From Tomitella gaofuii (GTDB lineage Bacteria; Actinomycetota; Actinomycetes; Mycobacteriales; Mycobacteriaceae), in contig NZ_CP059900.1 of NCBI RefSeq assembly GCF_014126825.1, positions 2,308,954 to 2,372,953 on the forward strand: a stretch of DNA of 64,000 nt, read 5' to 3'. The notes below the pieces were generated by a model. The model ran no database searches. It was not told the DNA's origin and worked only from the letters and a program-made list of their open reading frames with translations. The stretch's first letter is position 1. Each line of letters starts with the position of its first letter. The position numbers and the translations under genes are program-made. Below, one piece after another: positions 2,203 to 59,989 of this stretch.

Positions 2203-2346
2203 CTAGGGATCGCGGATGCAAACGCGTTGCGCGACACGCTGTGGACAACAGGCAGGTTTCCCACAGGCGGCGAAGTCCGCATCAGTGAACAGCAGGTTTC
2301 GTGCTATGCGGCGCGGGCAAACCGCACGCGATCTCTTCCGCGATCC
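2203..2346. repeat. REP/BIME-like inverted pair, copy A
   Basis: The 375-base space between the WYL regulator and jetA holds two inverted copies of a roughly 25-nt unit. One reads forward at 2203-2232 (core CTAGGGATCGCGGA), the other in reverse at 2324-2346 (reverse complement GGATCGCGGAAGAGATCGCG). Related inverted pairs lie at 28651-28776 and 34034-34146. The rest of this space shows no gene I can support, although a frame without a good start runs through it into jetA. Confidence 0.5.
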
Positions 2347-2571
2347 GCAGCCTGCAGAGAGACACATCGCCTCCCCCGACCGGCCAGAGAACGCGCGGTT
2401 CCGACTACCAGATCGCACCGCCGACTGCATGTCGAGAGCATCGTCCGCAGCCGTCCGCGCGCAAGATCACACCGCCCCATGCCTCACCCCGCACGCGGCG
2501 CCCGATACCTCTATCCTCGGCTTCGGCCGATCCTCGGCTGCCACCCCAGGAGCTCCGATCGAAAGGCGACG

Positions 2572-4221
2572 ATGGACCAGGCGGACGCACCGGCCGAGAC
2601 CCCCAGGCCGTTCGCTCACCTGCAACAGCCGGGAGCCCCGCTGTATCGCGCGATCATGGGCACGTTCGTGCAGGCCAAGCGCAGGTTCATCGTGCACCTG
2701 CGGCCGGAGGACATCCGCGCGATGCTCCCGGACCACGGCCGCACGCCCGCCGAAAGCCCGTCTCTCGACGGCGCCCTCGCCTCGCTGGAGCACTGGGGGA
2801 ACCTGCGTTCGGACCCGGACACCAGCCGGGTGACCAGCGTCGAGGAGTTCCGGCGGGCCCGCTACCTGTACCAGATGACCGACCACGGCCAGGCCGCCGA
2901 GGACGCGCTGCAGACGTACGAGGCGGCGCTGGGCCGGCGCGGGTCCCTGCAGTCGGTGGCGCTCGACGATATCGCCGGACGCCTGCGCGAGCTGCACACG
3001 CTCGCGTCGTCCGGCACCCCGGAGCCGGGCGCCACCCACCTGGCGCTGCGCACGCTCGTCGATCGCTTCGAGGATCTGGCCGCCAACGCGCAGGCCTTCA
3101 TGTCCGCCCTGGCCCGGACCATCGACGTGCAGGACGCCGAGGCCGACGCCTTCGTCGCCTACAAGGAACGCCTCATCGAATACCTCGAACGCTTCATCAA
3201 GGACTTGGTGGGCACCGGCGCGGAGATCGCGCGGCTCGTCGAACAGATCGAGGACCTGGGTGTGGACCGGCTGCTGCGGATGGCCGCCGAGCGCGACACG
3301 CGCGACACCGCCCCGGGCCCCGCCGACGCCGGCGACACCGCCGACGCGGTCCTGGCGCGCAGCCTCGCGCTCTGGCGCGACCGATGGCAGGGGTTCCGCG
3401 CCTGGTTCATCGGCAGCGCGCACCACCCCAGCCAGGCGATGGTGCTGCGCGGCCAGGCGCGTTCGGCGATCCCCCGTCTGCTGCAGGTGGTCTCGGCCCT
3501 GCACGACCGGCGTTCGAGGCGCTCCGATCGCGCCGCAGACTTCCGCGCCCTCGCGCAGTGGTTCGCCGAGGCGCCGGACGAGGACGCGATGCACACGCTC
3601 TGGCGGTCCGCATTCGGCTTGCAGCCGTCCCGGCACCTCGGCGTGGACGCCGACACCCTCGAGGCGCGCGCCTACGACCCGGTCCCCCCGGAGACGCCGT
3701 GGGCCGACGCGCCGCCGCTGCTCATCAGCCCACGCCTGCGCCGCACCGGCAGCTACGAACGCCGCGGGCGGCCCGCCCAGGTGCTCGACCGTTCCCTCGC
3801 GCGTCGGCATCTGGCCGAGCGCGCGGCCCAGGAGGTGCGGGAGACGGCGCGCGCACGGGCACGGCTCGCCACCGGCGGGCCCGTGCGGCTGTCGGACGTG
3901 GGCACGCTGGAGCCGGCCGAGTTCCGGTTGTTCCTGGGGCTGCTCGGCGATGCGCTCGCCGCCAAGCCGCTCGGCGCGCGCACGGTGGAGGTGAGCACCG
4001 GCGACGGCGCCATGGCGATCCGGCTGAGCGAATGCGATGCCGCCGGGCCCGAGGCAGGCGAGTCCGGCGCTGCGATGGCCGAGATCCGCACCCCCGACGG
4101 GATCCTGCGCGGGCCGGACCACATCGTCGAAATCCGCGACCTCACCGCCGCGCCCACCGGCGTTGCCGGCCCTGTGGGAGACGAAGCCCCGCTCCCCGAG
4201 TTCGCCCGCCGGGGCGCCTGA
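2572..4221 (+). CDS. jetA: Wadjet type II-like JetA (TIGR02677 family)
   Basis: A 549-residue protein resembling the first subunit of Wadjet-type SMC (JetABCD/EptABCD/MksBEFG) systems, which recognise and restrict plasmids and other circular DNA. JetA is the kleisin-like subunit. The N-terminal motif LYRAIMGTFVQAKRRFIVHL and the RRTGSYERRGRP segment near residue 395 are of the TIGR02677 type. I chose the ATG at 2572, preceded by GAAAGG, because everything upstream lies in the repeat-bearing intergenic space although the frame stays open to 2227. One base separates its stop from jetB, so the genes are translationally linked. Start and family are judged by eye from sequence resemblance. Confidence 0.85.
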   Translation: MDQADAPAETPRPFAHLQQPGAPLYRAIMGTFVQAKRRFIVHLRPEDIRAMLPDHGRTPAESPSLDGALASLEHWGNLRSDPDTSRVTSVEEFRRARYLYQMTDHGQAAEDALQTYEAALGRRGSLQSVALDDIAGRLRELHTLASSGTPEPGATHLALRTLVDRFEDLAANAQAFMSALARTIDVQDAEADAFVAYKERLIEYLERFIKDLVGTGAEIARLVEQIEDLGVDRLLRMAAERDTRDTAPGPADAGDTADAVLARSLALWRDRWQGFRAWFIGSAHHPSQAMVLRGQARSAIPRLLQVVSALHDRRSRRSDRAADFRALAQWFAEAPDEDAMHTLWRSAFGLQPSRHLGVDADTLEARAYDPVPPETPWADAPPLLISPRLRRTGSYERRGRPAQVLDRSLARRHLAERAAQEVRETARARARLATGGPVRLSDVGTLEPAEFRLFLGLLGDALAAKPLGARTVEVSTGDGAMAIRLSECDAAGPEAGESGAAMAEIRTPDGILRGPDHIVEIRDLTAAPTGVAGPVGDEAPLPEFARRGA

Positions 4222-4222
4222 C

Positions 4223-5602
4223 ATGGCAGGTTCACTGACCGATGCGCTGGCGCAGTCGCGCGACGACGAGCGCCGCCGGGCCGCGCGCGCGATCCTGCGG
4301 CGCCCGCTGCTGCGCGCCGACGGGCCGGACGCGGAATCGTTCGCGCTGGTGCAGCGCCACTCGGCGCACCTGCGCGCCTGGTTCCACACGCACGCCGGGT
4401 GGTCACTGCTCGTCACCCCGGAACTCGCACGGTTGACTAAGACGATGGACGCGGACGGCCCCGGCGCGCACACCCACCCCGCCGTCACCGCGCGCCCCCG
4501 CCGGCCGTTCACCCGCCGCCGGTACGTGCTCGCGTGCCTGCTGCTCGCGGTGCTCTCCCGCGCCGACGCCCAGATCACGCTCGGCGGACTCGCCGACGAC
4601 GTGCTGCTGGCGGCCGCCGACCCGGATCTGGCGGCCACCGGCCTGGAGTTCACGTTGGACAGCCGGGCGCAACGCGGCGACCTGGCGGCGGCGGTGCGTC
4701 TGCTCATCGAGTACGGCGTGCTCAGCCGGGTGGCGGGCGACGAGGACCTGTTCGTCGAGGACACCGGCGACGTGCTCTACGACGTGCACCGGCGCGCACT
4801 GGCGGGGATGCTCGCGTCGGCGCGCGGGCCCTCGACGATCGCCACCGCTGCATCATCCGGCCCCGCCGAGCGCTTCGCCGAACGCCTGGCGCGGCTCACG
4901 TTCGAGCCGCCCGCGGGCTCGGAGCAGCTGGGCGACGAGCGCATCCGCCGGTGGCTGACGCGGCGACTGCTCGACGACCCGGTCGTCTACTACGACGACC
5001 TTTCCCCGCGGGCGCGCGCACTGCTGGACGGCCGGCGGGCCGCGTTGACCGGGGCTGTCGCCGACCTGACGGGGCTCGTCCCCGAGGTGCGGGCGGAGGG
5101 CATCGCGATGGTCGACCCGGACGGGACGCTCACCGACGTCCGCATGCCGGAGGGCGGCACCGACGGGCACGCGGCGCTGCTGCTGGCCACCCACCTCGCC
5201 ACCGTCGACGTGCCCGTGCAGGTCGCGGAGCTCGAGTCGCTGATCCGGTCGCGCGCGCACGGATTCGCCGCACAAGGCTTTTGGCGCCGCGGCGCGGCGG
5301 AGCCGGGTGCGGACCGGATCATCGTGCGCACCGCGCTGGACCGCCTCGAGGCGCTGGGGCTGATCCGGCGCGGGCGCGGGGCCGACGGGGAGCCGACGGT
5401 GCAGCCGCGGCCCGCCATCGCCCGGTACGCCGTGACCGCGCCCGCCGCCGACGGCGTCATGGAGCTCCCCGGCCCTGAGGATCCCGACACCGCGAATCCT
5501 GAGGTCGAGCATTCCGACGCAGGGCACCCCGGCACTGCGCTCGCCGTCGAAGACCAGCCCGCAGAGCACTCGAGCAGACACACGGAGGAACACGCCCGGT
5601 GA
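4223..5602 (+). CDS. jetB: Wadjet type II-like JetB (TIGR02678 family)
   Basis: A 459-residue protein in the position and style of JetB, the tandem winged-helix (KITE/MukE-like) subunit of Wadjet SMC complexes. The N-terminus is a helical winged-helix segment (RRAARAILRRPLLRA). The middle contains the RRRYVLACLLLAVLSRADAQ segment near residue 95 that I associate with TIGR02678. The tail after residue 415 is low-complexity acidic and probably disordered. The start ATG follows the jetA stop by one base, and the stop overlaps the GTG start of jetC, as expected of a stoichiometric complex. Confidence 0.85.
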   Translation: MAGSLTDALAQSRDDERRRAARAILRRPLLRADGPDAESFALVQRHSAHLRAWFHTHAGWSLLVTPELARLTKTMDADGPGAHTHPAVTARPRRPFTRRRYVLACLLLAVLSRADAQITLGGLADDVLLAAADPDLAATGLEFTLDSRAQRGDLAAAVRLLIEYGVLSRVAGDEDLFVEDTGDVLYDVHRRALAGMLASARGPSTIATAASSGPAERFAERLARLTFEPPAGSEQLGDERIRRWLTRRLLDDPVVYYDDLSPRARALLDGRRAALTGAVADLTGLVPEVRAEGIAMVDPDGTLTDVRMPEGGTDGHAALLLATHLATVDVPVQVAELESLIRSRAHGFAAQGFWRRGAAEPGADRIIVRTALDRLEALGLIRRGRGADGEPTVQPRPAIARYAVTAPAADGVMELPGPEDPDTANPEVEHSDAGHPGTALAVEDQPAEHSSRHTEEHAR

Positions 5603-8600
5603 GCACGCACACGAGCACGACCGCCGCCGACGCGCTGCCCGTGCCCGCCCGGGGCCGCTGGCAACCGCTGCGCGCCGGCCTGGTGGACCTGTTCTACTAC
5701 GACCGCGAGGAGTTCTGGTTCCGCGACGGGCGCCTGCTGCTGCGCGGCAACAACGGCACCGGCAAGTCCAAGGTGCTGGCGCTCATGCTCCCGTTCCTGC
5801 TGGACGCCGACCTGTCGGCGCACCGCGTGGAGCCGGACGCCGATCCGAAGAAGCGCATGGAGTGGAACCTGTTGCTGGGCGGCGCCTACGACCATTCCGA
5901 GCGCCTGGGCTACACCTGGCTGGAGTTCGGCCGGGTCGACGACGACGGCACCGCGCACTACTGCACCATCGGCGCCGGGCTCAAGGCGGTGGAGGGACGC
6001 GGCATGCTGCCGCCGTGGTTCTTCGTCACCCCGCAGCGCATCGGGGCGGGCCTCGAGCTGGTCGACCACTCGCGCACCGTGCTCACCAAGGACCGGCTGT
6101 CGGCCGCGCTGGACGGGCACGGCACCCGCTTCGACCGCGCGGGCGAGTACCGGCGTGCCGTCGACGAGGCGCTGTTCGGCCTGGGCGCCCAGCGCTACGG
6201 CGCCCTCGTCGACCTGCTGGTGCAACTGCGCCAGCCGCAGCTGTCCAAGCGGCCCAGCGAGAAGGCACTGTCCGCGGCGCTGACCGAGGCGCTGCCGCCC
6301 CTGGATCCGGCGCTGCTGTCGGTGGCGGCCGAGTCGTTCCGCAGCCTGCAGGAGGACCGCGAGGAGCTCGACGGCCTGCGCGAATCGCAGAGCGCCACCG
6401 CGCGTTTCGTCGGCGTCTACGGTGCGTACGCACGGGTGGCGGCGCGCCGCCAGGCCGCCGGACCGCTCGCCGCGCAGGGCAGGTCCCGGCAGCTCGAGCA
6501 GCAGCTCCTCGACGCACAGACCCAATACACCGACGCGGAGGGGCAGGCCGAGGGGGCGCGCGACCGCATCGCCGAGGCGGGCGACCGGATCGCGACGCTG
6601 CGCACGCAGGACGCGGCGCTGCGCGACAGCACTGCCATGGACGCCGCGCGCGAGCTCGATGCGGCCCGTGCGGCGGCGCGCGAACGGGAGGCCGACGCCG
6701 ACCGCATCGCCGGCGAAGCCCGGCAGTCGGAGGCGACGCGCGACCGGCTGGCCGACCGCGCCGCCGCGGCCAACGACGCGCTGGCCGAGGCGCAGCAGCG
6801 CCTGCACGGTGCGCGGGCGCGCGCCTCGGAACGGGCGGGGGCCGCCGGCCTGGCCGACGGCGCGCACGAGGCGGACGAGGCGCAGCGGCGGGTCGACGCC
6901 CAGCTGCGCGCCCTGGACCGGGTGCGCGCGCTCGCCGACGACGCCGCCCTGGGCGAACGGGCGTTGGCCGACGCGCGGCGGCGGCTCGACGACGTCGCCT
7001 CGCGCGCCGACGCGGCCGAGTCGCGGATCGCCTCCGCGCGCCGCGCCGTCGAGGAAGAGGCCGAGTCGTTCACCGACTCGGTGCGCACCCACCTTTCCAC
7101 GACACGCGAACTGCAGGTGGCGGACCCGGCGGCGCTGTTCGCCGAGCTGGCCGACTGGTGCGGCTCCCCCTCGGGGCGCGGGCCCGTCGCCCCCCACCTC
7201 GACGCCGCGGAGTCTCGCGCCCGTGAGCAGCTCACCGCCCGCCGCGCCGGGCTGTCGGCGGAACTGTCGGGGCGGCGCACCCGCCGGGCGGCGTGGGAGG
7301 ACGAGCTCGTCTCCGCCGAGTCCGGCGAGGACGCGGTGCCGCCGGTGCCGTACACCCGCCACCGGTCCCCCGGCGCCGGAGCGGACACGGGGGCCCCGTT
7401 GTGGCGGGTGACGGACTTCGCCCCGCACGTCACCGACGCCGAGCGGGCGGGCATCGAGGCCGCGCTCGAGGCGTCGGGGATCCTCGACGCCCGCATCGAC
7501 TCCGACGGCGGCGTCACACACCCGTCGGCCGGTGAGCTGATCCTCGCTCCCGAGGCCGCGCCCGAGGCCGGCCCCTCTGCGCCGGGGGCGCACACCCTCG
7601 CGGCGGTGCTCGTCCCTGCGGCGGACCCCGAGGACACGGCCGCGGCCGCGCTGCCGACGGACGCGATCACGGTGGTGCTCGGCAGCATCGGCCTGGGTCC
7701 CGACAGCGGCCGCGCGTGCTGGGTGGCGCCCGACGGCCGGTTCCGCATGGGTGTACTCGCCGGCGCCTGGTCCAAGCCCGGCGCCCAGTACATCGGGCGC
7801 GGAGCCCGCGAGCAGGCGCGTCGGGCCCGGCTGCAGCGGTTGACCGGGGAGATCGCGGAGATCGACGCGCAGTCGGCCACCCTGGGCGAGCAGGATTCCG
7901 TTCTCGCCCAGCGCCTCACAACCCTCTCGGCGGAGCGCGCGGGTGCGCCGTCGGACGACGCGGTGCGCAGCGCCCGCCACGCGGTGGTGGCGTTGCAGAA
8001 CGAGCTGCGCCGCCTGCACGAGGAGCGCGACACCGCCGCCGACGCCGTCGAGGAGGCCGCGGCGGAGCACCGGACCGCGGCGGAGTCGCTCCACGAGGAC
8101 GCGGCCGACACCGGGCTGCCCGCGGCGCCGGCGGATCTCGACCGTATCCGCGACGCGCTCGGCGACTACCGCGTCGCGCTGGCCGATTTGTGGCCCGCGG
8201 CCGCGGCGGCGACCGCGGCGAAGGAGGCGTACGCCCAGGCCCGGGACGACCTGGGCCGCAGCGAGGAGGCGCGCGCCGCCGCCACCGAGCGGATGGACGA
8301 CGCCCACGCGGCCGCCGAGCGGGCCCGGGTGCGGTATCAGACGCTGCGCGAGTCGGTCAGCTCGGACGTGGACGAACTGCACGAGCAGCTCGAATCCGTC
8401 CAGCGCCTCATCGCCGCGGCGGAGGCGGAGCAGCACGATGCGCGGCGCGATGAACGCGCGGCGCTGGAGGCCCGCGGCAAGGCGGACGGCCGCCGCCAGG
8501 AGCTCGCCGTCGAGGACGAGGCGGCGCGGGCCGCGCTCGCGGCGGCGGCGGACGGGTTCCGCCGGTTCGCCGCCTCGGGGCTGCTGGACCTGGCCCTGGC

Positions 8601-9747
8601 CGCCGGCTCCGGGGACCACGGCACGGCCGGCGATGCGCAGTCCGGTGCTCCCACTGCGCCGACGGATCACTCCACGGACGGGGTCGTCGCGTTCGCCCGC
8701 GCCGTCGACCGCGCGCTGGCCGGCGTCGACGCCGGCGACGCCGCGTGGCGGCGCACGCGTCAGCGGGTGACCGACGAGCACAAGGCCCTCGAAGACGTGC
8801 TGGGCCGGCGGGGCGACTCGTCGTCGATGCGGATGGTCGACGATGCGGCCGTCGTCGTCGATGTGACGTTCCGGGGACGCCCCGCGCCCGTCGCCGATCT
8901 CGACGTCATGCTCGCCGCCGAGGTCGCCGAACACGAGCGGCTCCTCACTGCGCGCGAACGCGAGATCCTGGAGAACCATCTGCTGGGCGAGATCTCGACC
9001 ACCATGCAGGAGCTCATCTCCGGCGCCGAGGCGCAGGTGGCGCGGATGAACGACGAGCTGGCGTCGCGACCCACGAGCACCGGCATGCGTCTGCGCCTGG
9101 ACTGGCAGCCGCGCGAGGACGGCCCGGCGGGGCTCGCCGAGGCGCGGCGGATGCTGCGCCGGAGCATCGACGGCTGGTCCGAGGAGGACCGCGAGGCGGT
9201 CGGCGGATTCCTGCAGCGGCGGATCCACGAGGTGCGGGCCCGCGACGCGGGCGGCACGTGGCTGGAGAACCTCGGCGAGGCGCTCGACTACCGCACGTGG
9301 TTCCGGTTCGTCATCGAACGGCACCAGAACGGCAAATGGCGCCCGGCCACCGGGCCCGCCTCGGGCGGCGAGTCGGCGCTGGTGGTGAGCGTGCCGTTGT
9401 TCGCGGCCGCGTCCGCCCACTACAGCTCGGCGGGCAATCCGCACGCGCCCCGGCTGGTGATGCTCGACGAGGCGTTCGCCGGCGTCGACGACAACGCGCG
9501 GGCGAAGTACCTGGGCCTGCTGGCGTCGTTCGACATGGACGTGGTGATGACGAGCGAGCGCGAGTGGGGCTGCTACGCGGAGGTGCCCGGCATCGCCATC
9601 GCCCAGCTGGCGCGCACGGACGGCGTGGAGGCGGTGCTCGTGACCCGGTGGGAGTGGGACGGCGCGCGCAAACTGCATGCGCCCGTGCCGGTCCGCGCCG
9701 ACGCCGCCGCACCCCCGCCCCCGGGTCAGGACGGGCTCTGGGAGTAG
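5599..9747 (+). CDS. jetC: Wadjet type II-like SMC ATPase JetC (TIGR02680 family)
   Basis: A 1382-residue SMC/MukB-like ATPase, the DNA-extruding motor of Wadjet. The N-terminal head carries the P-loop GNNGTGKS at about residues 50-57. Long Ala/Arg/Glu-rich coiled coils cover about 290-640 and 740-1010, separated by a hinge-like globular part. The C-terminal head has an ABC-type signature (ASGGES, about 1254-1259) and Walker B VMLDEAFAGVDD (about 1287-1298). The GTG start overlaps the jetB stop. Strikingly, jetD (TIGR02679, the toprim-like nuclease) is absent: a convergent glycosidase gene ends only 37 bases after the jetC stop. Either jetD lies elsewhere or the system is crippled. Confidence 0.9.
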   Translation: MSTHTSTTAADALPVPARGRWQPLRAGLVDLFYYDREEFWFRDGRLLLRGNNGTGKSKVLALMLPFLLDADLSAHRVEPDADPKKRMEWNLLLGGAYDHSERLGYTWLEFGRVDDDGTAHYCTIGAGLKAVEGRGMLPPWFFVTPQRIGAGLELVDHSRTVLTKDRLSAALDGHGTRFDRAGEYRRAVDEALFGLGAQRYGALVDLLVQLRQPQLSKRPSEKALSAALTEALPPLDPALLSVAAESFRSLQEDREELDGLRESQSATARFVGVYGAYARVAARRQAAGPLAAQGRSRQLEQQLLDAQTQYTDAEGQAEGARDRIAEAGDRIATLRTQDAALRDSTAMDAARELDAARAAAREREADADRIAGEARQSEATRDRLADRAAAANDALAEAQQRLHGARARASERAGAAGLADGAHEADEAQRRVDAQLRALDRVRALADDAALGERALADARRRLDDVASRADAAESRIASARRAVEEEAESFTDSVRTHLSTTRELQVADPAALFAELADWCGSPSGRGPVAPHLDAAESRAREQLTARRAGLSAELSGRRTRRAAWEDELVSAESGEDAVPPVPYTRHRSPGAGADTGAPLWRVTDFAPHVTDAERAGIEAALEASGILDARIDSDGGVTHPSAGELILAPEAAPEAGPSAPGAHTLAAVLVPAADPEDTAAAALPTDAITVVLGSIGLGPDSGRACWVAPDGRFRMGVLAGAWSKPGAQYIGRGAREQARRARLQRLTGEIAEIDAQSATLGEQDSVLAQRLTTLSAERAGAPSDDAVRSARHAVVALQNELRRLHEERDTAADAVEEAAAEHRTAAESLHEDAADTGLPAAPADLDRIRDALGDYRVALADLWPAAAAATAAKEAYAQARDDLGRSEEARAAATERMDDAHAAAERARVRYQTLRESVSSDVDELHEQLESVQRLIAAAEAEQHDARRDERAALEARGKADGRRQELAVEDEAARAALAAAADGFRRFAASGLLDLALAAGSGDHGTAGDAQSGAPTAPTDHSTDGVVAFARAVDRALAGVDAGDAAWRRTRQRVTDEHKALEDVLGRRGDSSSMRMVDDAAVVVDVTFRGRPAPVADLDVMLAAEVAEHERLLTAREREILENHLLGEISTTMQELISGAEAQVARMNDELASRPTSTGMRLRLDWQPREDGPAGLAEARRMLRRSIDGWSEEDREAVGGFLQRRIHEVRARDAGGTWLENLGEALDYRTWFRFVIERHQNGKWRPATGPASGGESALVVSVPLFAAASAHYSSAGNPHAPRLVMLDEAFAGVDDNARAKYLGLLASFDMDVVMTSEREWGCYAEVPGIAIAQLARTDGVEAVLVTRWEWDGARKLHAPVPVRADAAAPPPPGQDGLWE

Positions 9748-49373: not shown

Positions 49374-49406
49374 TCAGGCGGGGACCGCGCAACTGTACGC
49401 CCTGAG

Positions 49407-51045
49407 CCCTGATCCACCGGCGTGATTGACGGTGTATTGATTTCGTGGTTTCTGTGCGGCGTTTCGGGTGTGGGCATGCGTGGGCTGCCGGCCGGTGCCG
49501 GAATGTCCACTGTGGTTCCTCGTATCGGGCCGCTGGTGCGGCAGGTGTTCAGACTGTGTGGGGCGTCGGTGGTCCGGTAGCGTTGTGCCACAACAGGTTC
49601 CATCCCGACATCCACGGCCAGTACGTCGGCAGATGCAGCATCAACCGGCGCCCGGTGCGGGCGATGCGGGCGGGGACACCGATGATGCGGGCCTGGAGCG
49701 TCGCCCACCGGGCGGTGGCCATGCCGGCGGCGACGGACGCGGCCCGGGCCAGGTTGAACCCGATCACCGCGATCGCCACCCACGCCGCATTGGCCGTATA
49801 GATCCCGGAGGGCAGGTGCGCGAGGGGGCCGTTCTTCAACTCGGCGTGCACCTGCTCGATGATCGCGTGGCCGCGGTGACGCTGGTCGGCGTCGACCACC
49901 GACAGCGTGCTGTTGGTGATGAACGCGTGGTGCCGGTAGGCGGCGAACAACTCGCCCTGCCCGGCGTGGTCCGCGGCCCGTGGCTGGAGGCGTTTGACGC
50001 GGCGCACCACCAGCCGGCAATCGACGTGGTCGGCCTTGCGGCGTGAGGTGAACGCGGTGAAGTCGACTTCGGCGACCTCGGCATCGGAGATCCAGCGGTG
50101 CTCGTCATCGTCCCAGACGGCGTGCGGGTAGGCGATCGGTGTCCACGCCTGCTCGTCGATACTGGCGATCGCGCTGGTGACCGCCGGATTCATAGGGGTA
50201 GTGATCGAGAACCACCCGCCGCGGCGCGCGGCGGCCGCGGTGAAATCGCGGCGGTAGTAGGCCGAGTCGGCGCGCACCAGGATCTGCCCGGCGGCCCCGG
50301 CCCGCCTCGAGGCGCTGATCGCGTCGGCGAGCATCCCGGCCGACCCGGACGCCGAGGCGGTGTTGCCTTTGCGTAGCCGGGCTGCGGTGATCACGGGCGC
50401 GGACACCGGCGTCGAGGTGACCGCGATCTGCATGTTCAACCCGCGTACACCGGTGTAGCCGAATCCGGCGGCCTGCTTGGCGTAGCCGTGGACCTGGTGC
50501 ACGGAATCGTCGACGTCGAGGAACGCGAGCGCCTCGGAATCGTCATGCCCGCCGATCAGGCCCGGCACCCGGTCGGCGAGCCGGGCGAGCAGGCGCGTGC
50601 CGGCCGCGTCGAGTTGGCGGACATGCCCATGGGTGAACAAACGCAGGAACGTGCCCAGGGTCGACGGAGCGCGGACACCGGTGAACAGGGCGGGCATGCC
50701 GCCGTGACACAGCAGGTCCATGTCGTCGATGCTGTCGGCGCCGGCGAGCATCCCCGACAGCAAGCAGGTGGTCTTGGCCGCCGCGTTCGGGCTCTCAACG
50801 GTCAGCCGGCCGAGCAGCTCGGAAAGACCCGCCGACTCGGCCAACTGCAGGACCGGGACCACCCGGCGGCCGACACGAGATTGCAGTCGTCGAAAACCGG
50901 GTGGATCGTGTGAGAAGCTTTCACCTACGAGGTGCCCTCTCCGTGCTGGTGGGTGTGGATGTCGCAATCAACATCTTCCCAGCACAGAAGGGCACCTCGT
51001 CCTCATGACACGCCCGAACCGACCATCACCACCGGTGGATCAGGG
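49407..51045. mobile_element. IS1380-family insertion sequence with 5-bp target duplication
   Basis: Inverted repeats CCCTGATCCACCGG (49407-49420) and CCGGTGGATCAGGG (51032-51045) are perfect over 14 bp. They are flanked by CTGAG on both sides (49402-49406 and 51046-51050), a target-site duplication. The element is 1639 bp and carries one transposase gene on the minus strand. The duplication shows that it inserted as a unit between the MFS gene and the ParA gene. Confidence 0.85.
49549..50967 (-). CDS. IS1380-family transposase
   Basis: A 472-residue DDE transposase. The IS1380 core is recognisable: LDVDDSVHQVHGYAKQAAGF, then LVRADSAYYRRDF, ITTPMNPAV and the late HAIIEQVHAELKNGPLAHLPS. No disruption is visible. 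The exact start is uncertain (TTG at 50967 has a GGGAAG upstream). Confidence 0.85.
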   Translation of the reverse strand: MRHPHPPARRGHLVGESFSHDPPGFRRLQSRVGRRVVPVLQLAESAGLSELLGRLTVESPNAAAKTTCLLSGMLAGADSIDDMDLLCHGGMPALFTGVRAPSTLGTFLRLFTHGHVRQLDAAGTRLLARLADRVPGLIGGHDDSEALAFLDVDDSVHQVHGYAKQAAGFGYTGVRGLNMQIAVTSTPVSAPVITAARLRKGNTASASGSAGMLADAISASRRAGAAGQILVRADSAYYRRDFTAAAARRGGWFSITTPMNPAVTSAIASIDEQAWTPIAYPHAVWDDDEHRWISDAEVAEVDFTAFTSRRKADHVDCRLVVRRVKRLQPRAADHAGQGELFAAYRHHAFITNSTLSVVDADQRHRGHAIIEQVHAELKNGPLAHLPSGIYTANAAWVAIAVIGFNLARAASVAAGMATARWATLQARIIGVPARIARTGRRLMLHLPTYWPWMSGWNLLWHNATGPPTPHTV

Positions 51046-51141
51046 CTGAGACCCCACTGTCACCTATCAGTGCAGCAGTCCCATACGATACATTAAGATA
51101 ACAACTTAAACCGCACTCTAGACAATCAGAACGGAGGCACT

Positions 51142-52182
51142 GTGGCCGGGCGCAACAAGGCATTGACATTCATGAATAATAAGGGAGGAGTCGGCAAGAC
51201 AACCCTCGCATGCAACCTAGCATACGATCTTGCATTTCGACAGAACAAGCAAGTCCTCGTCATTGATTTAGATCCCCAATGCAATGCTACGCAGCTTTTA
51301 CTCGAAGAGGATGTCTGGTCCAGGATACTGAGCAACAATGCGGCCCATAATGACCGTCAATCAATATTGTATGCACTGAGCGAAATTCGGCGCGGAGATA
51401 GTGGAGTGAAATCTGATATTACACCAGTCTGGTCCAAGCGCTTCGGCGTCAACGTTTTAACTGGACACCCTGCCTTAGCCCTAGTTGAAGACACCCTTAG
51501 CTCCTCTTGGTCCGATCTTCTCGCCGGTGACCTTGGCGGAGCGAGAAGAACAAACTGGCTCACGGTACTTCTTGCCGACATGAACCGAGAATTCGATTAC
51601 GCAATCATTGATGTTGGCCCAAGCCTCGGCGCGCTAAACAGAAGCGTAATTATCGGTAGTGACTATGTATTGACCCCAACGGCTGCTGACTTATTTAGCC
51701 TAAACGCCCTGGAGAACATTTCTGAATGGATTCAGCATTGGGGTCTCCGTTTTCAGGATGCCATGAGGCGGGTGGCTGCTGGATATCCGGATGAACCGTC
51801 GATTCCTACCCAGTCAGCCGATATGCTCAACGCTTCCTACATCGGGTTTACAATACAACAGTACGTTACGAAATCCAGCGCCGATGGGAAGCGCCGCGGT
51901 GTAAAGAGTTACGATTATTACCGTAATCAAATCCCCTCAAAAGCACAGAAATTGGCGGTAGCGCTGCGCCCCACTCATGAAGGCGCTGTCAATGATCTGG
52001 GGACCGTCCCTCACATGTTCTCGATGGTCCCACTTGCCCAGGGACGTCATGCACCGATTGCATCCCTCACCAAAGAGGATGGCTTGCGTGGCGCACAGAT
52101 TGGGCAGCAGGCCAACTATCGAAAGCAGTTGGAAGAAATCGGAGATCGTCTCTTTGCACTACTCTCGAGCGTAGATTCATGA
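51142..52182 (+). CDS. ParA/Soj-type ATPase, first gene of a ParA-SIR2 pair
   Basis: A 346-residue ParA-like deviant Walker ATPase. KGGVGKTT is at residues 14-21, VLVIDLDPQCNATQLLL follows, then YAIIDVGPSLGALNRSVIIG as Walker B and LTPTAADLFSLNALENI. There is no ParB, parS or plasmid origin nearby, and the downstream partner is a SIR2 protein instead. The coding region is visibly AT-richer than its neighbours (about half GC, more A/T at third positions), so it is acquired. GTG start with GGAGG; its stop overlaps the SIR2 start (ATGA). Confidence 0.8.
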   Translation: MAGRNKALTFMNNKGGVGKTTLACNLAYDLAFRQNKQVLVIDLDPQCNATQLLLEEDVWSRILSNNAAHNDRQSILYALSEIRRGDSGVKSDITPVWSKRFGVNVLTGHPALALVEDTLSSSWSDLLAGDLGGARRTNWLTVLLADMNREFDYAIIDVGPSLGALNRSVIIGSDYVLTPTAADLFSLNALENISEWIQHWGLRFQDAMRRVAAGYPDEPSIPTQSADMLNASYIGFTIQQYVTKSSADGKRRGVKSYDYYRNQIPSKAQKLAVALRPTHEGAVNDLGTVPHMFSMVPLAQGRHAPIASLTKEDGLRGAQIGQQANYRKQLEEIGDRLFALLSSVDS

Positions 52183-53081
52183 ACCGTAAATCAATAGTAT
52201 GGCCCAGGATACTAATAGATTCCTTAACCCGAGGCGAATGTGTCATATTCGTCGGAGCAGGCTTCACGAAAAATGCAGTCTCGCCTAAACCCGGATTAGT
52301 CCCGGTTTCCTGGTCAGAACTACTTTCCGCCCTCCTTGATGAAGTCGCACCACAAGATTCACATGGAACCAGAGAGCCTGCCGGGAAGGCGATAGAAAGC
52401 CAAATCGGCAGCGGAGATCTTCTATGGGCCGCACAGGCGCTGGAATACCTGTTCCAAGAGGCGGGGCGGAGTGCAGATTTCAGAGAGGTTATCGCAGCCG
52501 CAGTTGACGGCACAGGCTCCACGAGATTCCAACCCGGCCGCCCGCACCAAGCACTCTTGAGCCTCGACGCTCGAATTATCGTCACCACAAACTACGACAA
52601 GGTGCTGGAGAGGCTCTTTAGCGACGGTTACACATACCTTACCTACAAGAGCGACAACATTGCGGAGTCGATTCGCACTGGACGTTCTATTGTACTGAAA
52701 CTCCACGGATCCACTGACGACCCAAAAGGAATGGTACTGACTAGGCTAGATTTCTCGATACTGAGAAGAAATGGAGAGCAGGCACTGAAAGTGCTGGAGG
52801 CTCTTACCTTAACAAGAACTGTTCTGTTCCTTGGCTACGGGCTCGATGATCCGGATCTGCATCTGATCATGGAAAATCAAATGCGTGCCGCCGGGTCTGC
52901 CCCGGGGCACTACCTTTTGACTTCGGACCTAGAAATTTCGAAGGCGAAGCGTAACGTATTAGAACAAGCCTTTGGCGTCCACGTTATCCGCTACCAGTCG
53001 GGCCCCTCGGAGGGTTTTGTAACGGCAGTTGAAGATTTGGCGGTTCAGGTGGAAAGCTCGCGCATGGAGACGCACTCCTAG
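52179..53081 (+). CDS. SIR2-domain protein, second gene of a ParA-SIR2 pair
   Basis: A 300-residue SIR2_2-type protein. FVGAGFTKNA (26-33) binds NAD, TTNYDKVLE gives Asn near 138 and Asp near 140, VLKLHGSTDDPKG gives the catalytic-type His near 176, and FLGYGLDDPDL closes the fold. In defence systems such domains deplete NAD+ upon phage sensing. The ATG lies inside the upstream gene's stop, so coupling is tight. AT-rich like its partner. No transmembrane or HerA/STAND domain is present. Confidence 0.82.
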   Translation: MNRKSIVWPRILIDSLTRGECVIFVGAGFTKNAVSPKPGLVPVSWSELLSALLDEVAPQDSHGTREPAGKAIESQIGSGDLLWAAQALEYLFQEAGRSADFREVIAAAVDGTGSTRFQPGRPHQALLSLDARIIVTTNYDKVLERLFSDGYTYLTYKSDNIAESIRTGRSIVLKLHGSTDDPKGMVLTRLDFSILRRNGEQALKVLEALTLTRTVLFLGYGLDDPDLHLIMENQMRAAGSAPGHYLLTSDLEISKAKRNVLEQAFGVHVIRYQSGPSEGFVTAVEDLAVQVESSRMETHS

Positions 53082-54430: not shown

Positions 54431-54483
54431 GCATTTCGGGTATCGGGGTTCTGATGGTCGGGTAGCTGAGTATTCGTAGTTGT

Positions 54484-54560
54484 GGGGGCCACGTGATCGT
54501 GCCTTTGGGGGCCACCGATCGTGCCGACGGGGGCCAGGAGCCGTCGCAGCGGGGGCCACT
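54484..54560. repeat. 22-nt-spaced GGGGGCCA repeats at the left IS21 end
   Basis: Four copies of GGGGGCCA recur every 22 nt (about 54484, 54506, 54528, 54550). Four similar GGCCCCC copies, also partly 22-nt spaced, are at about 56948-57028 near the right end. These are likely transposase-binding sites. Confidence 0.65.
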
Positions 54561-58948: not shown

Positions 58949-59080
58949 ATGGACAAATTGCCGATTAAACGAACCACTTCGTCAAGTATCCGTCGGTACG
59001 CCGCAATAATTCGGAAGAAGCTATTTAAATACAAGGTTCGACAGATCTGCAGGATGAAACCTTACCCGGAGGCGATTAAT

Positions 59081-59989
59081 ATGCTCAATAGCTCATCACT
59101 AGACACTCGCCGCACAGAGCTACGATCGGCAGCCCTCGCCATTCTTGCTATCCTTCTTACAGCGTCAATCACCTTCGTGATCAATTCGTATTCCTCTAAC
59201 AAAAATGCAGTCCAAGCCGACAAAGCGGTCAGCGAAGCTCGACATAAGGAAGATTCTACTGGCATGCCAGCCGAAGTTCAATTCATAGCGCCTGATCGCG
59301 GGCCGACAAATCCATGGCCAGGCTGGGTATCTGCAGATAAACTCCAGGTCCCGTCAGGGTCGCCTTCCAATTATATTCCATCACACGGCACAGTGATCCA
59401 TGTCGGTCGTCCCACGATGTTTACCAAAGGTGGCGTCACGTACCGCGATTATGCACAACTGGGTATCACCTTCGACTTAAAGGGCGTGACAAACTATCCG
59501 GTTAAACTCACTTCCCTTGAGGCGGTGGTAATGTCACAAACACCAGCCCCAGACGGGACTGTATACTGCGTATACCCTCAAGGTTCCAGCCTAAGGGGGG
59601 ATATCGTTTTCGATCTCAGCGTAGGCGCCGACCATAACGCATTCTCGACAGAATATGGCACTGATATGCTCGATAGATACCTCGACAATCACGTGGTTAC
59701 GATCGATCGATCGGAGTATATTGGTTTCAATGCAATTGCATTTACCCCTCCGGACACGGACACCACATTTCTTATCCGGGCATGCTTCGACACGATGAAA
59801 TGCGTGAATGTAGACGACAATGGCGTCCCGTTCCGCCTCGTGTCTTACCCAACAGCGACTGACAATGCGTTTGTAACTGCATATCCGCAAGGTTCCGGCA
59901 TCGACGCTATGGGTATTTATCCGTGCAGATATCCGAGCGAATGCGCATCTAGCATGAATTCCATTATTCGCAATCCCGTTCCCAACTGA
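59081..59989 (+). CDS. Single-pass membrane protein of unknown function in an AT-rich island
   Basis: A 302-residue protein. A short cytoplasmic head is followed by one hydrophobic helix (SAALAILAILLTASITFVIN, about 16-35), then a large extracytoplasmic domain with repeated aromatic/Gly/Pro strands. GGAGG is eight bases before the ATG at 59081; the frame is open further up to 58949, adding a basic segment without a better ribosome-binding site. Late cysteines (FDTMKCVN, GIYPCRYPSECAS) may form disulphides. No family recognised. Base composition resembles the ParA-SIR2 genes, so it probably came with them. Confidence 0.6.
   Translation: MLNSSSLDTRRTELRSAALAILAILLTASITFVINSYSSNKNAVQADKAVSEARHKEDSTGMPAEVQFIAPDRGPTNPWPGWVSADKLQVPSGSPSNYIPSHGTVIHVGRPTMFTKGGVTYRDYAQLGITFDLKGVTNYPVKLTSLEAVVMSQTPAPDGTVYCVYPQGSSLRGDIVFDLSVGADHNAFSTEYGTDMLDRYLDNHVVTIDRSEYIGFNAIAFTPPDTDTTFLIRACFDTMKCVNVDDNGVPFRLVSYPTATDNAFVTAYPQGSGIDAMGIYPCRYPSECASSMNSIIRNPVPN

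Follow-up and report, generated by a model that had tools for sequence, protein, structure and literature searches.

A ParA-like ATPase gene overlapping a stand-alone SIR2 gene is probably a mobile two-gene defence module

A 64,000-nucleotide stretch of Tomitella gaofuii DNA (contig NZ_CP059900.1, part of a 4.35-Mb single-contig assembly; the whole stretch is called the window here) carries a gene for a ParA-like ATPase that overlaps the gene for a stand-alone SIR2 protein. We find that this ParA–SIR2 pairing is conserved across bacterial phyla, that the two genes have been inherited together with their catalytic residues intact, and that the pair is mobile and occupies an anti-phage hotspot. 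It is probably a horizontally transferred two-gene defence module of the abortive-infection type, in which ParA would gate a SIR2 enzyme that consumes NAD+. Bacterial immunity makes repeated use of SIR2 NADases, and the switches known to us for them are TIR messengers, HerA, Argonaute, STAND proteins and fused sensor repeats; the pair is probably a defence system that has a SIR2 effector and a switch of a new type.

ParA and SIR2 are conserved as overlapping neighbours

Both open reading frames (ORFs) of the pair, picked out by an earlier sequence-only reading as a 346-residue ParA and a 300-residue SIR2 protein sharing ATGA, are unbroken on the forward strand (Table 1). The ParA stop codon TGA lies at 52180–52182 and the SIR2 start codon ATG begins at 52179, an overlap through which co-translation of the two proteins is likely. 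The ParA protein has a KGGVGKTT deviant Walker A motif, and a Pfam search, which that reading had called for, assigned AAA_31 to it and SIR2_2 to its partner as the sole domain.

We searched the GTDB species-genome collection with a SIR2 profile together with one strict peptide pattern and obtained 64 loci. At an in-family cut-off of 150 bits, which was chosen post hoc and has 145 and 206 as its nearest scores below and above, 36 loci were in-family: 25 from Pseudomonadota, six from Bacteroidota, three from Bacillota and one each from Cyanobacteriota and Planctomycetota. A ParA gene lies immediately 5' of SIR2 in 33 of the 36, counting the damaged loci L036, L047 and L071; the exceptions are L049, at a contig end, and L032 and L033 from Ralstonia, where SIR2 is solitary. 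No family ParA was found in the available flanks of the 28 out-of-family SIR2 loci (26–145 bits). Viral contigs gave the same division, with ParA beside SIR2 at 16/16 in-family and 0/4 other loci when duplicates were kept in the count. The two genes overlap in 49 of 57 non-redundant pairs (out of 72), by exactly four bases in 40 of the 57. Using tblastn, we also found ParA–SIR2 neighbours on plasmids of Salmonella, Spirosoma, Vibrio, Burkholderia, Photobacterium and Neorhizobium; these are eight of the 30 records listed for SIR2, all within the nine best, the more distant SIR2s being left out.

The sequence-only reading had allowed that the genes might not be neighbours elsewhere, and the genome survey it proposed found the overlapping pair across phyla. 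The surroundings of the window copy, rich in insertion sequences (IS), could suggest chance neighbours assembled by IS activity, but this explanation, to which we give next to no credence, is refuted because the overlapping pair is conserved in five named phyla plus the window.

Several searches returned little. When viral contigs were first scanned with only the window SIR2, five distant loci (L013–L017) came up, and no family ParA was found in them; a DNA-level search found no plasmid relatives; the pair of viral contig L113 had no E. coli DNA matches; and phage records gave no match to an Enterobacter SIR2 and one weak match to the window SIR2. Besides L047, in which by our reading (motifs judged by eye) a full-length SIR2 ORF follows a ParA that lacks its N-terminal part and has a transposase-like ORF alongside, damaged copies have a broken ParA frame (L036 and L094) or a broken SIR2 frame (L071). 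At four loci (L018, L095, L101 and L103) a DNA methylase gene lies about 10 bases 5' of the pair, three of these methylases being 83–85% identical to that of L018; methylase–ParA–SIR2 is a possible three-gene variant.

The two genes share a history and keep their catalytic residues

Identity matrices for ParA and SIR2 from 40 pairs were strongly correlated (Mantel r 0.909), with none of 5000 permutations as high and a permuted maximum of 0.305. In a ParA tree of 115 sequences, built with a quick method, supported by the Shimodaira–Hasegawa-like approximate likelihood-ratio test (SH-aLRT) only and rooted by us on three canonical ParAs, the SIR2-linked ParAs form a single clade (SH-aLRT 100), made up of the window ParA, those of 50 pairs and one row from a contig edge. 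Its named members come from Pseudomonadota, Bacteroidota, Bacillota, Cyanobacteriota and Planctomycetota.

Residues G26, G28, N138, D140 and H176 of SIR2 are invariant in 40/40 aligned sequences, and K14, K19, D44 and D157 of ParA in 42/42, the window being included in both alignments; Lys19, Asn138 and His176, which the sequence-only reading had singled out for mutation, are among them. That reading had also called the pair AT-richer than the chromosome, and its GC content is 51.9% against 70.4% in the remaining window. The same holds elsewhere: where 6 kb or more of flank was available, every genome-scan pair (26 of 26) is AT-richer than the DNA around it, the mean difference being 15.5 points. 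Judged from these comparisons, ParA and SIR2 have been inherited together and are mobile as a unit.

The pair occupies an anti-phage hotspot in P2-like prophages

A near-identical pair occurs in 12 of 5426 complete E. coli genomes. All six loci read out of these 12 lie in a P2-like prophage, flanked by the gpA (replication endonuclease) and gpQ (portal) genes, and the genes adjoining the pair vary from strain to strain. This gpA–portal site is an anti-phage hotspot according to Rousset et al. (PMC9122126), who curated 169 systems there; that collection could include the ParA–SIR2 pair unnamed. At one E. coli locus (L199, 13004–13876), the RefSeq SIR2 start lies 78 bases downstream of the start in the ATGA overlap, and the longer ORF is open.

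Among 120 neighbours of the pair, the first 25 of 154 Pfam families include nine integrases, six N6/N4 DNA methylases, three portals, three CI repressor C-termini and two gpA proteins, and ordinary metabolic genes are present too. Five hand-picked adjoining genes match the PADLOC models SoFic, MTase_II, PDC-S28, PDC-M15A and PDC-S02. The hotspot location and the other defence-type genes alongside support a defence role, as the sequence-only reading had proposed; what it overlooked is that the same ParA family occurs with other effectors (see below). The pair has the catalytic Asn and His and the association with mobile elements or defence loci that mark the SIR2-effector kind of anti-phage system.

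Related ParA proteins are paired with other enzymes

We scanned viral contigs for relatives of the ParA and kept the best 80 of 365. Beside these 80 stood SIR2 at 21 loci, a RelA_SpoT-type protein at 18, a HEPN-type protein at four, a conserved protein of unknown family at three and an AlbA_2-type protein at two, with five at a contig edge. Of 298 genomes sampled from the window's order, ten have ParA relatives (1e-20), one of the ten being its own genome, and at the order loci outside the window a partner stood beside ParA in nine of ten (AlbA five, HEPN three, PIN one). At the level of the class, relatives (1e-30) were present in 25 of 246 genomes, again counting its own, and the 19 new loci comprised seven with an AlbA gene, one with a PIN-like gene and 11 with no recognised partner. 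Pfam searches of representative partners returned RelA_SpoT for two proteins, PIN_12 for one and SLFN_AlbA_2 for one; HEPN_RiboL-PSP matched one representative above the family cut-off and one below it.

Most of the non-SIR2 partner genes abut or overlap the ParA gene. On the tree, ParAs with the same type of partner group together, with 15 label changes against 58.9 when labels were shuffled, and partnerless ParAs are scattered. Because D183, W200, G235 and P305 are common to ParAs of different partner types, we regard these proteins as a single ParA family whose partners are exchangeable. One viral contig (L133, 1556–11348) carries a bacteriophage exclusion (BREX) locus in the order PglX–AlbA–ParA–PglZ–BrxL.

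At 18 loci in the range L147–L185, some on near-duplicate contigs, ParA overlaps a RelA/SpoT-type synthetase gene or lies at most nine bases from it; these pairs are possibly unrecognised toxic alarmone synthetase modules. The pairs of L154 and L152 had no E. coli DNA matches. A ParA sub-clade has a conserved partner at L164 (7038–7757), L167 (7078–7725) and L182 (1617–2300). We rejected the label of nucleotide cyclase for this partner, because two members had no Pfam or PADLOC match and a three-row profile gave no confident match to a solved structure.

The pattern of partners supports ParA as an exchangeable regulator, because sister clades pair with other likely growth-arrest enzymes. The chances seem to us about even that the whole family is a general, exchangeable immune switch of bacteria and prophages, built on a partition-related scaffold but not serving partition. 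It would couple to at least four kinds of growth-arrest effector (a SIR2 NADase, a RelA/SpoT synthetase, a HEPN RNase and a PIN RNase) and to a partner of unknown fold, and would also occur in an AlbA–ParA cassette within BREX or next to a helicase.

Those same partners resemble growth-arrest toxins, and the ParA–SIR2 pair could instead be an addiction module of the toxin–antitoxin kind, with ParA as an antitoxin that silences a toxic SIR2 and with stabilisation of the carrier prophage, plasmid or island as its main effect. The regulator-first overlapping gene order fits this, as do the occurrence of the pair on plasmids and prophage contigs and the rarity of in-family SIR2 without ParA (2 of 36, besides one contig-end copy). 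Against it, SIR2 is kept where ParA is damaged (L047) and where it stands alone (L032 and L033); provided that these copies are expressed, SIR2 is seemingly not lethal without ParA. We consider addiction unlikely as the main role, and it and defence are not mutually exclusive.

The ParA does not resemble part of a partition system

With the ParA, Soj and ParF proteins the window protein shares the KGGVGKT deviant Walker A motif and the ParA core, but it is longer (346 residues against 206–276 in the solved Soj and ParF chains) and, in a comparison made within the family, keeps the C-terminal residues W200, G235 and P305. Its only close solved relative, matched by the family profile at E 1.3e-94, is 3pg5; the entry bears the title 'Uncharacterized protein', and we take it to be a structural-genomics entry from a Corynebacterium.

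The PHROGs label for the family is 'ParA-like partition protein', and according to PMC9122126 about a fourth of P2-like phages have a putative plasmid partitioning system at this site. Both would suit a ParA that is a partition protein or a remnant of one, with SIR2 as a passenger. Several observations oppose this. SIR2 takes the place of ParB as the adjoining gene, and no parS of chromosomal type was found in the window at up to three mismatches (other centromere types were sought only as repeats), in keeping with the sequence-only reading, which had seen neither ParB nor a partition site. No annotated ParB stands next to the pair at the six E. coli loci. On the Vibrio plasmid L020, a separate ParA–ParB set lies away from the pair, so origin from a plasmid partition set, which that reading had named as the finding that would overturn it, is not what we see. 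Scored on the family profile, canonical ParAs from the host and from L020 reach only 35–70 bits, and the strict pairing and common history with SIR2 also argue against a passenger. We judge a partition role highly improbable.

PMC7159879 describes MinD/ParA-like domains inside larger conflict systems and predicts them to be inactive. Both cases place a ParA/MinD-type protein in a predicted conflict system, but the ParA here is free-standing and has invariant ATPase residues.

The pair differs from known SIR2 systems

KomC of Kongming (KomABC) is controlled by separate proteins, KomA being a deaminase and KomB of HAM1 type, and SIR2-HerA has an ATPase of FtsK/HerA type. The nearest solved relatives of our SIR2 protein are 7uxt, DSR2, ThsA, FAM118B and KomC. 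KomC resembles it in being a short stand-alone SIR2 NADase (264 residues, 8zsf/9xvc); KomA and KomB were not among the window ORFs tested, and our SIR2 protein is instead partnered by a ParA-like ATPase. SIR2-HerA likewise joins a SIR2 effector to an adjoining ATPase gene, but our partner is a deviant-Walker ParA (AAA_31/CbiA/ParA), with no HerA model among the matches listed.

The SIR2_2 domain is closest to ThsA of Thoeris in PADLOC and near it among solved structures, whereas the C-terminal SLOG/STALD part of ThsA is absent here (the profile match covers 14–231 of 478) and no TIR (ThsB) gene was among the neighbouring window ORFs tested. The PADLOC models ThsA, LmuA and Dsr1 all align to the protein over their first 230–256 positions only. 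DSR1 and DSR2 have a related SIR2 domain but are single proteins of about 1000 residues or more against 300 here, and the NCBIfam Dsr2 model gave 28.3 bits against a cut-off of 1400. We rejected membership of Thoeris, SIR2-HerA, DSR and Kongming on partner or architecture.

SIR2 folds can be deacylases, and some copies of the pair lie near phage repressors and integrases, as might be expected if SIR2 were a deacetylase or signalling enzyme under ParA that regulates the prophage or element and neither kills the cell nor restricts phage. The domain is SIR2_2, however, its nearest solved relatives include ThsA, DSR2 and KomC, which are NADases by entry name or abstract, and sister ParAs are partnered with RelA_SpoT, HEPN and PIN proteins; we hold this alternative to be very unlikely.

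The sequence-only reading knew of no named system of this two-gene make-up. Our search by title and abstract likewise found no published ParA–SIR2 two-gene system among the matches listed, with preprints, most subscription papers and supplements outside its scope. Nor is the pair described in the available parts of PMC7159879, PMC8649781, PMC9503650, PMC10121019, PMC8754150 and PMC11326445.

Sequence surroundings of the pair

The end of an IS1380-type element lies 91 bases 5' of the ParA GTG codon, and IS21-, IS30- and Mutator-type transposase genes lie 3' of the pair (the IS family names are partly our own assignment), bearing out the IS-rich setting that the sequence-only reading had described. 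By Pfam, the seven ORFs other than the pair between 49549 and 62422 comprise five of transposase or IS families, one DUF6262 and one without a match. GC content at third codon positions (GC3) is 0.52 in ParA and 0.55 in SIR2, against 0.68–0.94 in the other called ORFs except 58949–59989. That exception, a 346-residue ORF (GC 0.50, GC3 0.52) flanked by transposase genes and lacking a Pfam match, looks like a second gene of foreign origin. Repeats close to the pair are two-copy families only, plus a 2.4-copy array of 22 bases at 54483–54536, which we do not take for a centromere. Scans for promoters and terminators yielded no signal exceeding chance.

Table 1 Features of the ParA–SIR2 pair and its 5' side in the window
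Feature	Position	Strand	Basis or remark
IS1380-type element	49402–51050	-	Inverted repeats 49402–49420/51032–51050; transposase 49549–50967, DDE_Tnp_1_4
Inverted repeat TTAAG-N7-CTTAA 5' of ParA, candidate operator	51093–51109		By-eye reading; may be an operator
GGAGG, resembling a ribosome-binding site, for ParA	51133–51137	+	Read from sequence
ParA-like deviant-Walker ATPase, 346 amino acids, GTG start	51142–52182	+	Pfam AAA_31, 1e-29
ATGA shared by the ParA stop codon and the SIR2 start codon	52179–52182	+	Likely translational coupling
SIR2_2 protein, 300 amino acids	52179–53081	+	Pfam SIR2_2, 1.2e-27

A match to the Rfam small-RNA family Ms_IGR-7 (RF02469, 50.6 bits) at 50927–51043 coincides with the end of the IS1380-type element, and this family may in reality be an IS end. 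Genes for a DUF2397 protein (2227–4221) and a 1382-residue SbcC_Walker_B protein (5599–9747) lie over 40 kb away from the pair; we take them to resemble part of a Wadjet-type operon.

Discussion

In the mechanism that we propose, a ParA of a distinct clade would be co-translated with a stand-alone SIR2_2 enzyme and probably bound to it, and SIR2 would be silent in the uninfected cell. On infection, an ATP-driven change in the dimer or DNA-bound state of ParA would release SIR2 to destroy NAD+, and the loss of NAD+ would stop growth before the phage matures. NADase activity, direct contact of ParA with SIR2, infection as the trigger and activation by ParA rather than restraint are what we infer. 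Judged by its family, SIR2_2, and by the solved proteins nearest to it, the SIR2 protein most likely consumes NAD+. Because ParA keeps its ATPase residues, it probably alternates between an ATP and an ADP state and signals to SIR2. The hotspot location and the nature of the sister partners point to infection as the trigger. As SIR2 persists in L047, L032 and L033, we lean slightly towards ParA as an activator rather than a restrainer.

Several observations weigh against this proposal. The Ralstonia SIR2 copies at L032 and L033 lack ParA. Within the window's phylum, SIR2 was found in one of 346 sampled genomes, namely its own, and the window ParA row has a long branch that the tree tool flagged; being divergent and the sole copy among 346, the window pair is possibly decayed. 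No ParA partner was recognised at 27 of the 80 viral loci kept, so ParA perhaps has roles of its own. Searches of PADLOC (2023), which the sequence-only reading had likewise suggested, and of NCBIfam matched no model specific to the pair. The counts of defence-type neighbours are raw, uncorrected for a background rate, and the putative partitioning system mentioned in PMC9122126 could cover ParAs of this family.

If the proposal is true, the SIR2 effector would be armed in a new manner, by a switch of ParA type, and the version in E. coli P2 prophages makes the system directly testable in laboratory strains. Since the ParA family couples to several effectors, the signal of one pair may explain a number of uncharacterised prophage genes whose sole annotation is 'ParA family protein' or 'partition'. 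A general ParA-type switch, if it is real, would form a class of regulators with a role like that of the STAND ATPases or the TIR and CD-NTase sensors, and would matter more than a single ParA–SIR2 system.

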